From positions 248,001 to 312,000 of the forward strand of contig JAHBVX010000009.1 in assembly GCA_019637295.1 (NCBI GenBank): 64,000 bases of DNA, in the 5' to 3' direction. Under the pieces are notes generated by a model. It was not told the DNA's origin. It saw only the letters and a program-made list of their open reading frames with translations, and made no database searches. Made by a program: the position numbers and the translations under genes. Positions 29,613 through 56,109 of this stretch are shown piece by piece. Positions within the stretch are counted from its first letter, which is position 1, and each line of letters starts with the position of its first letter. Source of the DNA: Polyangiaceae bacterium. GTDB taxonomy: Bacteria; Myxococcota_A; Polyangia; Polyangiales; Polyangiaceae.

Positions 29613-29764
29613 CTCAAGAGCTGTCGAATAATCGACAGCTCTTTCATTCTTTCACCGGGGAGGCACGCGCCTCCCCGCCCCGCCGAAGTGAATTCGTCGG
29701 GGCCCCACCCCACGCGGGGCCGGCTCCGCCGGCGCGAACTGGGTCAATTCTTGACAGCCCTTCA
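29613..29764 (-). repeat. Hairpin-chain 3' repeat, copy 1
   Basis: About 152 bp, read leftward. It starts with the TGA stop of the DUF2236 gene (TGAAGGGCTGTCAAGAATTGACCC) and ends in the perfect 12-bp stem AAGAGCTGTCGA-TTAT-TCGACAGCTCTT. Between them are a GCCGGC-GGA-GCCGGC hairpin, a CCCCGACGA/TCGGCGGGG stem and GGGGAGGC-GCGT-GCCTCCCC. Clearly homologous to 48888-49019 and 55256-55404. It fills most of the 265 bp between this gene and comM. Confidence 0.93.
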
Positions 29765-30727
29765 GCGCTCGGCGCGGCGAGTGAACCCGGCTACGGACGC
29801 GAGCACTGGCAGCCGAGCCTCCACGAAGCGGGCGATCGGATCCGTGTCGCCCCTGCCCGACACGCGGCGCAGGGCGTGGCTGTACGCCGGGACGACGCGC
29901 AGCCGCTCGGGGATGCGCGGGTACACGCGCCGCAAGGACGCCATGGACGCGCGAAACACCCGCCGCTCGGCCGACTCGAAGCGCAGGCCGAAGGGCGCGC
30001 GCAGGCGCTCGGGCATGAGCCCCGCCGTCATCGACTTCAGCCAGCGGAGGGGCGGCTGGGCCGCTCGCGACGGCGCCTGGAACAGGAACTCGCCCAGCTC
30101 TCGCGCCGGGCGGCCCACGGCGATGGTGTCGCTCGCGAGCATGTCACGCATGTAGTCGTCGAAGGCGCGCGAGTCTCTGGGAACGTGGCGGTCGCGCAGA
30201 CCGAAGAGCAACGCGAAGCGTTTGGTCTCTTGGTAGTACGCCTCTCGCTCGACCGGACGAAGCGGCCCGAAGACGGACTCGTACACCAGCAGGGCCGAGT
30301 CGATGAGTGTAGCGTGGACCCAGAGCAGGCCGCCTTCGTCGTTCGCGTCGTAGCGGTCACCGCGCCGGAACGCGCCGACGTCCTCGTCGATGGTGCCGTG
30401 AATGCGGGTGTGAATGGCGTGCACGCGTCTGGCCGAGCGCAACGCCTGGCCGAGCTCGCCGAACACCATGGCGTACACGTTGTCGAAGGTGCGCTGGAAG
30501 CGGCCGAGGGGATCGCTGCGGGTGGCGGAGTGTTGATCCACCGCGTGCGCGACGAAGGGGTGGGCCAGCTGCAGCAGCGCGGCTCGCCCTCCGCCGAGGA
30601 ACAGCACGCTCTCGCGGTCGATGCGCCAGGACCAGCTCCCCGGACCCGTGAGCCCGTGCTCGGGCCTGACCACGGAGGCCGCCAGTTCGTCGAGCGCGGC
30701 GGCCAGATCCTCTCGGCTGACGGTCAT
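29762..30727 (-). CDS. DUF2236 (MpaB-like oxygenase) family protein
   Basis: 321 residues. DUF2236 marks: SWSWRIDRESVLFLGGGRAALLQLAHPFVAHAVDQHSATRSDPLGRFQRTF, then RVHAIHTRIHG, VHATLIDSALLVYESVFGPL and YYQETKRFALLFGL, followed by RAFDDYMRDML. The family contains conserved histidines (here in AHPFVAH, RVHAIHTRIHG and WVHATL) that bind heme in characterised latex-clearing-protein relatives, and some members are oxygenases. The actual reaction here is unknown. It is cytoplasmic by lack of a signal. Its stop codon is the first base triplet of a hairpin-chain repeat. Confidence 0.88.
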   Translation of the reverse strand: MTVSREDLAAALDELAASVVRPEHGLTGPGSWSWRIDRESVLFLGGGRAALLQLAHPFVAHAVDQHSATRSDPLGRFQRTFDNVYAMVFGELGQALRSARRVHAIHTRIHGTIDEDVGAFRRGDRYDANDEGGLLWVHATLIDSALLVYESVFGPLRPVEREAYYQETKRFALLFGLRDRHVPRDSRAFDDYMRDMLASDTIAVGRPARELGEFLFQAPSRAAQPPLRWLKSMTAGLMPERLRAPFGLRFESAERRVFRASMASLRRVYPRIPERLRVVPAYSHALRRVSGRGDTDPIARFVEARLPVLASVAGFTRRAER

Positions 30728-48293: not shown

Positions 48294-48890
48294 ATGAGCA
48301 AAGTGTGCTTGGGCATGTTGGTCGTGGCCACCGCCAGCGCCTGCCAGCAGGGCTCGGCCTCGGAGCGCGGCGCCGCGCCCTCGGCCGCCGGCAGCGCTTC
48401 CCCCGCGTCGCCCCAAACCGCCGGCGTGGCCAGGAACCTGGGAGTGACGTGGACCGCGCCGGATTCGTTCTCGACGGTGACCACCCCGAGCGCGATGCGC
48501 GCCGCGAGCTATCGTGTGCCGCCTGCGCCGGGCGACCCGGAGGCCGGCGACCTGGGCGTGTTCTACTTTGGCGCCGACGAGGGTGGCGGCGTGGAGCGCA
48601 ACGTGTCGCGCTGGGTCGCGCAGTTCCCGGATGTGCCCGCCGGTAGCGTCAAGCGCCGGCAACGCACGGAGAACGGCCTGCTGCAGCACATCGTGGAGAT
48701 CGAAGAGGGCACGTTCCAGAGCGGGATGCCCGGCGGACCCACCACACCCAAGCCGGGCCATGCGCTGTACGGTGCGATCGTCGAGGCACCGAGCGGGCTG
48801 TACTTCTTCAAGCTGACCGGCCCGAAGGCCACCGTCGCGGCGGCGCGAGCGCCGCTCGAGACGATGCTCGCGACGGTCGCCCCCAAGTGA
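48294..48890 (+). CDS. Lipoprotein of unknown function
   Basis: 198 residues. Signal MSKVCLGMLVVATASAC with lipobox ASAC and an Ala/Ser-rich linker. The folded part reads LGVTWTAPDSFSTVTTPSAMRAASYRVPPAPGDPEAGDLGVFYFGADEGGGVERNVSRWVAQFPD, then a beta-rich half ending KLTGPKATVAAARAPLETMLATVAPK. This matches a common myxobacterial and planctomycete pattern in which a small lipoprotein carries a PsbP/LpqN-like fold (GPxxTVAAAR...FxxMLxTV). Role unknown. Its TGA is the first triplet of a hairpin-chain repeat, and it converges on pgsW. Confidence 0.8.
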   Translation: MSKVCLGMLVVATASACQQGSASERGAAPSAAGSASPASPQTAGVARNLGVTWTAPDSFSTVTTPSAMRAASYRVPPAPGDPEAGDLGVFYFGADEGGGVERNVSRWVAQFPDVPAGSVKRRQRTENGLLQHIVEIEEGTFQSGMPGGPTTPKPGHALYGAIVEAPSGLYFFKLTGPKATVAAARAPLETMLATVAPK

Positions 48891-49026: not shown

Positions 49027-50169
49027 TCAGACCATCTGTTGCGGTTGCTTGCCCGCCTCGCGCCGGCGGATACGCAGGATGCGCATGCCCAGGTCCATGC
49101 GAATGAACGCCAGCATCACGCCGAAGATGACGAGCACCCCCGCGCCGGCCAGCCAACGGTTGGGCTCCGCCTTGACGTACACGGAGCCTTCGCCCAGGCG
49201 TGGCTCCGGCTCGCTGTCGGCCTTCAGGCCATAGGTCTTGGCGATGGCCTCGATGCTGCTGACATGGATGACTGCGACGCCCCGCTCGGCGAAGCGCAGC
49301 ATGACCGAGTCCGCCAGTCCCTCGCCGCGAGGCACGCCGGTATTCAGGCCGGGCTCGAACTGCTTCTTGCCCACGTGAGTGCCGACGGAAGCCGAGCCGC
49401 CACCGACGTTGATGTAGGCCTTGTAGTCGCGGCCATTGCTGCGGGCGTCGAAGATCTGCATGCGCCGGTCGATGGACTCGGCCAGGCTGACGGTATCGAT
49501 GCGCTCCACGGCCGCGCGAGCGATGGCGGCGTCGAGCAGCGCGCGGCCTTCCTTGGACATGCCGAAGCCGCGGTCGTCGATCCCGCCACGCGACGCGGCG
49601 ATGGACCGAAAGGAGAACACCTTCTGGTCGAAGAGGGTGCGCTCCATGTCGAGCCAGGTGTAGGCCGGGTCGTTGGCGCCCCACTCGGAGCCGGACACGC
49701 TGGCAATGATGATGGGCTGGGCCTCGACGGTCTCGAGCGCGGCGAACGCGGAGATGGCCAGGGCGGGGAACGAGCCGGACACGCCCACCGCCACCAGATC
49801 TCCCCGTTGGACGCCGCTCTGCTTCAGCATGTGCACCATCGCCGCGGCGAAGTTCGGGTTGGTGCTCGCGCGCTTCGCGCCGATGTAGCCGGTGTTGGAG
49901 GTGATGGGCGTGAGGGCTTGGCCGATCAGCCCGGTCTCGTGCGGGTCCGCCTCGCGATCGAAGGTCACGCCTCGCTTGGCGCGCTCGGCCTTGATGGCGC
50001 GCATGGCGTCGAGCGAGAGGCGGGCCGCCGCGAGCTTGTCCGAGTGCCAACGCTGGGTGCGCACCACCGGGAAGCGCTCCACGATCAACAGCGCGGCCAC
50101 GCTGACCATGGCGATCATGGCCAGCGCGCGGCGGGAGATGCCCGGTGGTCGCCAGTAGATGCGCTTCAT
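49027..50169 (-). CDS. pgsW: Poly-gamma-glutamate system protein PgsW
   Basis: 380 residues with an N-terminal membrane helix (RRALAMIAMVSVAALLIVERFPVV) and a C-terminal one (WLAGAGVLVIFGVMLAFIRMDLGMRI). The middle reads RGVTFDREADPHETGLIGQALTPITSNTGYIGAKRASTNPNFAAAMVHMLKQSGVQRGDLVAVGVSGSFPALAISAFAALETVEAQPIIIASVSGSEWGAND, characteristic of the poly-gamma-glutamate system protein family that accompanies PgsB and PgsC in Gram-negative bacteria. Its ATG overlaps the pgsC stop (ATGA). It probably stabilises or exports the polymer synthase at the inner membrane. There is no PgsA/CapA gene here. Confidence 0.9.
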   Translation of the reverse strand: MKRIYWRPPGISRRALAMIAMVSVAALLIVERFPVVRTQRWHSDKLAAARLSLDAMRAIKAERAKRGVTFDREADPHETGLIGQALTPITSNTGYIGAKRASTNPNFAAAMVHMLKQSGVQRGDLVAVGVSGSFPALAISAFAALETVEAQPIIIASVSGSEWGANDPAYTWLDMERTLFDQKVFSFRSIAASRGGIDDRGFGMSKEGRALLDAAIARAAVERIDTVSLAESIDRRMQIFDARSNGRDYKAYINVGGGSASVGTHVGKKQFEPGLNTGVPRGEGLADSVMLRFAERGVAVIHVSSIEAIAKTYGLKADSEPEPRLGEGSVYVKAEPNRWLAGAGVLVIFGVMLAFIRMDLGMRILRIRRREAGKQPQQMV

Positions 50170-54562: not shown

Positions 54563-55258
54563 GTGGGTGGCCCCCGCTGCTTCATCCTGCTGGGCTTGGC
54601 GCTGTCCTCCGGCGGCTGCGTGCTGGGTCAACGACCCGTGCAGGAGCCGAGCGCCGGGGACGCGACCGTGTTGGTGGGGAGCGCCGCCCTGCCCGAGCCC
54701 ATCGACGGTCTGGCGCGCCACCCATGGATCGCGCTGCGCGACGAGCGAGCGCAAGGGTGGGAGCGATGGGAGGTCATGTGCTGCGCTCGGGACACGCCCC
54801 TGGGCACCGTTCGTCGCACGTCCACGAGTCCGCTGAGCGACTACGGCGCCGGTGGTGGCGACGTGCGCATCCACGGGGTGTTCCGAGGCCAGCGCGCCGA
54901 AGCGATGATCGAGTGCATGCGGCGTGAGGCGCCGCGCTACCCGTATCGTGACGTGTACCGCGCGTGGCCCGGACCCAACAGCAACACGTTCGTCGACTTC
55001 ATGTCTCGCAAGTGCTCCATCCCCGTGGATCTGCCGGCAGGCTCGATCGGCAAGGACTACCGAGGGCTCGTGATCGGGGCTTCGGCCACCGCAGGCGGCA
55101 CCGGCGTGCAGCTCGAGACGCCGGTGCTAGGCGCCAAGCTCGGCCTGACCGAGGGCGTCGAGGTGCACCTGTTCGGCATGACTTGGGGCGTCGATCTGTG
55201 GCCGCCGGCGCTGGTGCTGCCCATCGGTCCCGGGCGCTTCGGCTTCGATGACCGCTGA
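54563..55258 (+). CDS. DUF3750 family lipoprotein
   Basis: 231 residues from a GTG at 54563; a TTG at 54527 would add 12 residues. Signal GGPRCFILLGLALSSGGC with lipobox SGGC. DUF3750 marks: RHPWIALRDERAQGWERWEVMCC near residue 45-67, then YPYRDVYRAWPGPNSNTFVDFMSRKCSIPVDLPAGSIGKDYRG and a Gly-rich end (ASATAGGTGVQLETPVLGAKLGLTEGVEVHLFGMTWGVDLWPPALVLPIGPGRFGF). The family is an uncharacterised envelope-linked group. Its TGA begins hairpin-chain repeat copy 3, and it converges on an outer-membrane protein gene. Confidence 0.82.
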   Translation: MGGPRCFILLGLALSSGGCVLGQRPVQEPSAGDATVLVGSAALPEPIDGLARHPWIALRDERAQGWERWEVMCCARDTPLGTVRRTSTSPLSDYGAGGGDVRIHGVFRGQRAEAMIECMRREAPRYPYRDVYRAWPGPNSNTFVDFMSRKCSIPVDLPAGSIGKDYRGLVIGASATAGGTGVQLETPVLGAKLGLTEGVEVHLFGMTWGVDLWPPALVLPIGPGRFGFDDR

Positions 55259-55404
55259 AGGTCTGTCAAGAATTGACCCAGTTCATGCCGGCGAAGCCGG
55301 CCCGCGTGGGGTGGGGCCCCAACGAATTCACTTCGTTGGGGCGGGGAGGCGCGTGCCTCCCCGGCGACAGAATGAAAGAGCTGTCGATGCTTCGACAGCT
55401 CTTG
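55256..55404 (+). repeat. Hairpin-chain 3' repeat, copy 3 (most complete)
   Basis: Starts at the TGA stop of the DUF3750 gene and continues through five hairpins: GTCAA/TTGAC (55265-55277), GCCGGC-GAA-GCCGGC (55287-55301), CCCCAACGA/TCGTTGGGG (55317-55341), GGGGAGGC-GCGT-GCCTCCCC (55343-55362) and the 12-bp stem AAGAGCTGTCGA-TGCT-TCGACAGCTCTT (55376-55403). It ends 4 bp before the converging gene's stop codon. Probably a bidirectional transcription end or mRNA 3'-end element. Confidence 0.94.
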
Positions 55405-55407
55405 AGG

Positions 55408-56109
55408 TCAGCGGCGTTCGAGCTGAGCGTCCACCGCGTAGCCGACCACCACGGCGTAGCCGACGGCGCCAAGCCACTCGCGATACGCCCCGCCGATGAA
55501 CAGCCCGCGGCTGATGTCCGCGCGATGACGTCGGCGCTCCGCGCCGATGCGCAGCCCGACGCCGAACTCCACCTCGTGCGCAAAATCGAAATGGCGTGCG
55601 CCGCCCTGGCGCGCGTCCACCGCGAGCCAGGCGGGTCGGCCGTAGCCCGCGAGACGAAAGGGACCGGGCACGTCGAGCTCGAGCCGTGCCTCGACGACGG
55701 CGCGGGGCGCGAAGGGTACGCGCGACGTGACGCCGTCCACATCTCCCCCGCCGAGCAGCGCCAGCCAGCCCACACCGTCGATGAATCCAGCCACGCCGGC
55801 GGGCAGCAGGTGGAGCTGATAGGCGAAGCCACCCGGCAGGCTCGCACCCAGCTGATAGCCGGCCCCGGCTGCGAGGCCGAGCGGTACCTCTCCTGGACCG
55901 AACGCGGCCCGCAGCTCGAGCCCTAGCGTGCCGAGCTGACGCAGCGAGTCGGCGGGAGCGTCCCGCACCGTCATGGCGCGCGCGCCGATCACCGCCGAGC
56001 CGGCGGCGTGTTCGGGCATGGCCTGGGCCCGCGCCGCCAGCGCGAGCAGGCACGCTGCGACGAGGTGACCCGCCGTGCGCGCTCCGTCGTCTCCGCGTCG
56101 CATCGACAT
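55408..56109 (-). CDS. Probable outer-membrane beta-barrel protein
   Basis: 233 residues from the ATG at 56109 (another ATG two codons later). A signal peptide is seen at GHLVAACLLALAARAQA. The mature protein has alternating beta-strand segments (VIGARAMTVRDAPAD, LGLELRAAFGPGEVPLGLAAGAGYQLGASLPGGFAYQLHLLPAGVAG, AVVEARLELDVPGPFRLAGYGRPAWLAVDAR, FDFAHEVEFGVGLRIGAERRRHRADISRGLFIGGAYREWLGAVGYAVVVGYAVDAQLE), ending in an aromatic-free strand. The overall pattern fits a small outer-membrane barrel of unknown role. A 20-residue lipoprotein-like ORF lies just upstream. Confidence 0.7.
   Translation of the reverse strand: MSMRRGDDGARTAGHLVAACLLALAARAQAMPEHAAGSAVIGARAMTVRDAPADSLRQLGTLGLELRAAFGPGEVPLGLAAGAGYQLGASLPGGFAYQLHLLPAGVAGFIDGVGWLALLGGGDVDGVTSRVPFAPRAVVEARLELDVPGPFRLAGYGRPAWLAVDARQGGARHFDFAHEVEFGVGLRIGAERRRHRADISRGLFIGGAYREWLGAVGYAVVVGYAVDAQLERR

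Follow-up and report, generated by a model that had tools for sequence, protein, structure and literature searches.

A family of chained-hairpin repeats in this Polyangiaceae genome begins, at most of its sites, exactly on the stop codon of a gene. It is probably a non-autonomous transposable palindromic element of the MITE/REP-like kind, recently active, whose short stop-codon-like target spares the gene that it hits. Three copies lie in the window, by which we mean the whole 64,000-nucleotide stretch that was analysed (Table 1). The preliminary description had reported three hairpin copies, each starting on the TGA stop of a called gene, and had placed two of them in gaps between converging genes; we confirmed both points in the sequence (the two are those at 48888 and 55256) and found the third between two co-directional genes. 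The right end of the copy at 55256 falls at 55405/55406 (CTCTTGAG), one to two bases past position 55404, where it had been drawn earlier.

Table 1. Element copies in the window, parts of copy 1, and the genes that flank the copies.
Feature	Coordinates	Strand	Remark
Element copy 1, subfamily A, TGA...CTCTTGA	55256..55405	+	sits between converging genes
Left-end TGA of the element, also the stop of the upstream gene	55256..55258	+	
Left end, imperfect terminal inverted repeat (CTGAAGGTCTGTC...) and small GTCAA/TTGAC hairpin	55256..55279	+	
Hairpin GCCGGC-GAA-GCCGGC	55287..55301	+	read from sequence
Core hairpin 1 (GCCCCAACGAA...TTCGTTGGGGC)	55316..55342	+	covariation across subfamilies and genera
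Core hairpin 2 (GGGGAGGC-GCGT-GCCTCCCC)	55343..55362	+	covariation across genera
Right terminal hairpin (AAGAGCTGTCGA...TCGACAGCTCTT)	55376..55403	+	
Right TGA, which may be the other copy of a 3-bp target duplication	55403..55405	+	by analogy with G040
Gene upstream of copy 1, DUF3750 domain	54563..55258	+	ends in the element TGA
Converging gene past copy 1	55408..56103	-	stop 2 bp beyond the element's last G
Element copy 2, internally deleted, locus L092	48888..49018	+	between converging genes
Gene upstream of copy 2, stop TGA 48888-48890	48294..48890	+	G001 ortholog ends at same residue
Converging gene past copy 2	49027..50169	-	same neighbour in G001
Element copy 3, subfamily B, locus L031	29613..29764	-	between co-directional genes
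Gene upstream of copy 3, MPAB_Lcp_cat domain	29762..30727	-	stop is the element TGA 29764-29762

About 60 copies are spread over the host genome, whose 25 contigs add up to 7.65 Mb: BLAST gave 40 long matches, a covariance model about 60 distinct places, and a search with the end pattern a few additional remnants. For one host protein the closest named relative, at 68% identity, is a Polyangiaceae bacterium. The element is about 151 bp long and very uniform in sequence, and its chained hairpins follow the order TGAAGG[T/G]CTGTCAAGAATTGACCC, GCCGGC hairpin, GTGGGGTGGGG, two GC-rich hairpins, a 12-bp hairpin and [T/C]GAG. Its ends form imperfect terminal inverted repeats of about 13 bp (CTGAAGGGCTGTC / CTCAAGAGCTGTC); they read AGGGCTGTC...GACAGCTCT in the host and GCAGGGTGTTG...CGGCCTGC in the related genome G040. 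Compensating changes separate the two subfamilies; one base pair, for instance, is A-U in 22 and G-C in 18 of 41 sequences. Compared with dinucleotide shuffles, the predicted fold of the copy at 55256, the window copy that was folded on both strands, is strong on each of them (z -8.7 on the plus strand, -9.0 on the complement); the copy at 29613 reaches z -6.4, and the internally deleted copy at 48888 folds only weakly better than its shuffles (z -2.7). The Rfam covariance models gave no match across the window at the gathering score, and none in five element loci up to an E value of 1. Short, without coding capacity and scattered in many near-identical copies, the element has the general features of a MITE. 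One place in the host genome, L105, is close to a lone hairpin unit.

The tabulation against stop codons covers 70 host loci (40 from BLAST, 24 further ones from the covariance model, and six from end-pattern or weak-model matches), two weak places being excluded (L170, and L169, which reads as no element). Every copy was oriented first, and genes were called with a home-made codon-usage caller rather than a standard program. At 57 of the 70 loci the left end is the in-frame stop of a gene in the sense orientation (56 TGA, one TAG). These comprise 52 of the first 64 loci and five of the six further ones, the latter including the TAG. This genome-wide search, which the preliminary description had called for, thus supports its proposal of a dispersed mobile element that inserts at stop codons. 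Among the copies most like that at 55256 (L009-L026, 96-99% identical), 17 of 18 start exactly at a stop, so the coupling seems to be fixed at insertion.

Thirteen loci are not exact (L014, L030, L032, L086, L089, L090, L091, L094, L097, L099, L102, L105 and L167). Many of them are degenerate, but L014, L030, L032 and L086 are complete or almost complete and so count against a strict coupling. At L090 an in-frame TGA follows an open frame of 188 codons, and at L014 and L032 open frames of 75 and 101 codons end at the TGA; the gene caller accepted none of the three. Others lie near a stop, L030 at 2 bp past a TAG and L097, L099 and L167 slightly further downstream, as expected of a short target. 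The left-hand gene points the opposite way in 6 of 64 loci (L014, L032, L091, L097, L102 and L105). The orientation relative to the gene, described earlier as always the same, is thus nearly fixed genome-wide but not constant. Copies at random distances and in both orientations, which had been named as grounds for giving up the idea, were not seen overall, the exceptions being the 13 of 70 loci that are not exact and the 6 of 64 that are reversed.

At the 52 exact loci the gene on the other side is converging in 33 cases and co-directional in 19. Copies between converging genes are therefore many, and convergent ends are enriched relative to background 3' ends (33/52 versus 44/181, p = 5e-7). 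The element thus combines an extragenic location with the 3'-end and convergent bias by which REPs and REPINs are recognised. In convergent loci a median of 8 bp separates the element end from the stop of the opposing gene. Converging gaps without the element are similarly short in the window (median 12 bp, 22 gaps), and such gaps leave ordinary terminators without room. Examples of tight converging pairs in the window are 5037/5042, 19010/19018 and 1289/1302. At 47 of the 52 exact loci the stop is preceded by C, compared with 119 of the 221 TGA stops that served as background (p = 1e-8), and this C before the TGA is a target preference.

A genome of the same genus, G001, has no match to the element and so offers a view of element-free gene ends. 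We compared 30 C-termini of the 40 eligible upstream proteins with it; 21 matched in the examined loci, of which 18 were kept at 49% identity or more and three (L045, L093 and L029, at 33-41%) were set aside as likely paralogs. The upstream protein ends within three codons of its G001 counterpart in 16 of the 18 pairs; in the remaining two the protein of G001 extends further, by 13 codons in one and 43 in the other. The downstream gene was matched in the same G001 locus in 13 of the 18 (11 of the 16), where "same" means a tblastn match within the same locus of about 3.2 kb (that of L042 lies about 1.1 kb away). At the site of the copy at 48888, G001 keeps both flanking genes and the same last residue of the upstream protein, with TAG in place of TGA. 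Since protein ends match and neighbours are retained where the element is absent, the insertions went into existing stops: the element entered natural gene ends that were already in place. At about 75% DNA identity the G001 spacers cannot be aligned, so a target duplication is unreadable there. We also considered a gene cassette with an attC-like site, an idea disfavoured by the 13 of 18 element-free counterparts that keep the downstream gene in the same locus.

The same comparison bears on a history in which the element inserted at random downstream of a gene and a later deletion reached up to it, its own TGA becoming the stop. The truncated copies L101, L103 and L163-L166, which are likewise fused to stops, would fit such deletions, but of the 18 most similar copies 17 already start exactly at a stop and protein ends match those of G001 in 16 of 18, and we regard this history as very improbable.

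The supply of target motifs does not explain the placement on its own. The window holds 292 CTGA sites in genes, 44 in intergenic DNA and 26 at stops. If stop and intergenic sites were equally usable, 37% of copies (26/70) would be expected at stops, as against the observed 81% (57/70; binomial p = 4e-14); for the 18 most similar copies, 17 of them at stops, the same expectation gives p = 6e-7. Broken down by gap type, the CTGA counts (19 at stops and 8 intergenic for converging gaps, 69 and 89 for co-directional ones) point the same way. Motif availability combined with the loss of genic insertions is therefore insufficient, and placement is either further targeted or further selected. Some further factor of this kind is needed to explain the excess at stops; we infer a cause above the motif-alone level from the distribution of copies, and it may lie in either process.

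The coupling recurs beyond the host genus. A model of the two-hairpin core, in which 7 of 18 pairs are changed on both sides across genera, finds this core in 19 of 98 genomes of the family, from 13 of 48 genera. The terminal hairpins vary by genus, yet the stop coupling reappears. Exact left borders in the relatives were judged by eye on the aligned sequence. Copies are coupled to a TGA stop in G004 (8 of 11 loci) and G069 (5 of the 7 listed), and lie at TAG with one or both ends in G074 (6 of the 8 sampled from 16). In G109 all five copies sampled from seven are at stops (left TAA, TAA and TGA; right TGA and TAG). For G040 we took 20 of at least 52 places together with eight copies on small contigs; 10 of these 28 are at a stop (left TAG in six, right TAG or TAA in four), a lower bound because several copies run into the end of a contig on one side. 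Judging by the YTAR sites on 20 G040 contigs, 11% would have been expected, which is less than observed (p = 6e-4), and no called gene spans any tabulated G040 copy. Single coupled cases occur in G014 (L051 and L067) and G005 (L060). In G022, where gene calls are unsettled, many of the 21 loci lie off any clear stop. Many G040 contigs end inside or beside an element, and the 52 places scored there probably fall well short of the true number of copies.

The sister family in G040 makes a 3-bp target duplication. Of 15 copies, 12 have the same trinucleotide to the left and to the right (TTA/TTA or CTA/CTA), among them every one of the 11 that carry the younger left hairpin; from these 15 pairs L267 is omitted, its right end being cut, and for L252, which has two right hairpins, the last was used. 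Three of 20 G040 copies have T as the first base, none of them at a left-hand stop. In L252, L254 and L266 the right terminal hairpin stands in tandem with a shared flanking trinucleotide, as if the hairpin were independently mobile. In the host, the right trinucleotide at 56 recognised right ends is TGA in 33, CGA in 18 and TGC in 5, so a TGA duplication would not be clean there; of the 18 most similar copies, 16 have TGA at the left and at the right alike, whereas the right trinucleotide of many older copies is CGA. The base after the right trinucleotide is G in 52 of 56 and may belong to the target or to the element. By analogy with G040, the host family may likewise duplicate its target. 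G109 shows no duplication, its left and right trinucleotides being different. Its right terminal hairpins in L284, L285, L287 and L288, copies that are similar in other respects, carry the outermost trinucleotides TCA, TTG, TTA and CTA, matched by the inner partners TGA, CAA, TAA and TAG, as if the target or the other arm had served as template for one arm. The outer trinucleotide of L284 and L288 is the stop of the neighbouring gene.

These data bear in two directions on a true targeting of stop codons or 3' ends, in which insertion is tied to translation termination or another feature of gene ends and not to the DNA trinucleotide alone. The excess at stops (81% against the 37% expected from CTGA sites) and the G109 copies, which abut TAA, TGA and TAG stops at either end, speak for it. 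The preference for C before TGA and the duplication in G040 suggest instead that the target is recognised at the DNA level, and selection for a harmless or useful place could yield the excess. On balance we consider such targeting unlikely. We give no better chance to its extension to the whole superfamily in this bacterial family, which would recognise stops as such (TGA, TAG and TAA) via translation termination or gene 3' ends and so gain safe harbours and an RNA tail.

The likeliest reading is transposition into a stop-codon-like trinucleotide. The target of the transposase would be (C)TGA in the host and probably also in G004 and G069, YTA/TAR in G040 and probably CTAG in G074. Insertion would duplicate the trinucleotide, as seen in G040 and supposed for the host, and a gene hit at its stop would keep an intact stop and its full protein, while insertions within genes would be lost by selection. 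In G040 the stop is remade in one of two ways: at the right end the duplicate by itself suffices, as TAR on the opposite strand, and at the left end TA is completed to TAG by the G with which the element begins. From then on the chained hairpins would form a new 3' tail of the gene, most often in a gap between converging genes. IS5-family MITEs use short targets such as YTAR or TNA, and the YTA of G040 and the TGA of the host resemble these in length, duplication and sequence.

The transposase would presumably be supplied in trans. The end-pattern searches and the inspection of Y1_Tnp and reverse-transcriptase loci revealed no transposase or autonomous parent with the element's ends. Of 20 small G040 contigs collected with such a parent in view, eight match the element; L418, the one whose frames were read, has no transposase, and its frames resemble what we take to be dnaK and a poly(A) polymerase. 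A REP/REPIN-type origin would provide a mover in a RAYT tyrosine (HUH) transposase, with single-strand insertion 3' of CTGA, hairpins recognised as in IS200/IS605 and no duplication. Transposition of the IS200/IS605 type is not expected to create a target duplication, and that in the G040 sister family speaks against it. The element is palindromic, extragenic and 3'-biased, and its right end, TYGAG, seems to belong to the element itself more than to a clean duplication. The host has one RAYT-like Y1_Tnp gene above the family cut-off (L171:1174-2085). GTAG-REP termini, as described in PMC3733652, often supply a TAG stop. However, the 3.3 kb around the L171 gene contain no element ends or core beyond short matches at chance level and no convincing long terminal repeats, and neither element end carries a GTAG or CGTC tag in the alignment of 41 sequences. 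The REP-type transposase, for which the preliminary description had suggested a search, is not supported as the mover, and we consider this origin improbable, if somewhat less so than recognition of stops as such.

A remnant of a group II-like retroelement moved by its reverse transcriptase has, in our judgement, very little chance of being correct. In G014 the left half of an element runs into a decayed reverse-transcriptase fragment (L051:1556-1810, the same place as L189, on contig C5), which would suit such an origin, but it is a single case: of 30 reverse-transcriptase loci taken from a search of 60 genomes of the family only L189 matched the core or ends. The host loci L106-L108 gave only short chance-level matches to the element ends, none of them convincing, and no Rfam family matched in the window or in the five element loci. 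The G014 fragment is possibly a reverse-transcriptase element that inserted into a hairpin. The host frames lie at L107:3455-4957 and L106:3506-5755, one apparently truncated and group II-like, the other unusually long.

For the genes concerned, a role of the element as terminator or mRNA 3' stabiliser is plausible, judging from its predicted fold, its position, its nearly fixed orientation and hairpins on both sides. The tail would probably act as a two-way transcription terminator, as an mRNA 3' stabiliser or as both; the last hairpin is not followed by a U-run. Genes that receive the element acquire a hairpin tail and stay intact. It offers a natural case of mobile DNA spreading in a gene-dense genome via the one codon that can be duplicated without harm, rewiring gene 3' ends as it goes, and its repeats allow a direct test of how transcription and mRNA decay in high-GC bacteria respond to a large ready-made 3' hairpin tail. 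If the targeting holds, the transposase could serve to tag the ends of genes.

Bacterial MITEs, as reviewed in PMC10969869, share with the element small size, lack of autonomy, imperfect terminal inverted repeats, hairpin RNA and, for the sister family, a duplicated target; they differ in that the element is placed at stop codons, a term absent from the main text of that review. REPINs mobilised by RAYTs (compare PMC3116915, PMC8266576 and PMC2817692) are likewise non-autonomous hairpin composites, and the host has a RAYT-like gene. In contrast to them, no REP lies beside that gene, the composite is long with a GC-rich core, and the sister family duplicates its target. A literature search, not exhaustive, found no paper on this element family or on a near-complete coupling to stop codons, the nearest precedent being the GTAG/CGTC REPs and BIMEs of PMC3733652. 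By that account REPs are palindromic, dispersed and mostly extragenic and lie between converging ORFs, no more than about 20 bp from the 3' ends of genes; the termini of GTAG-REPs often serve the adjoining ORF as its TAG stop. This much is already known. REPs there measure 20-40 bp, whereas the element has about 151 bp and at least four hairpins, is untagged, supplies mostly TGA, is coupled to stops almost completely and has no adjacent transposase gene. New here are a longer, untagged family with far stronger coupling, mostly to TGA, protein ends that are unchanged relative to an element-free genome, the use of all three stops over several genera, and a 3-bp duplication in one of them.
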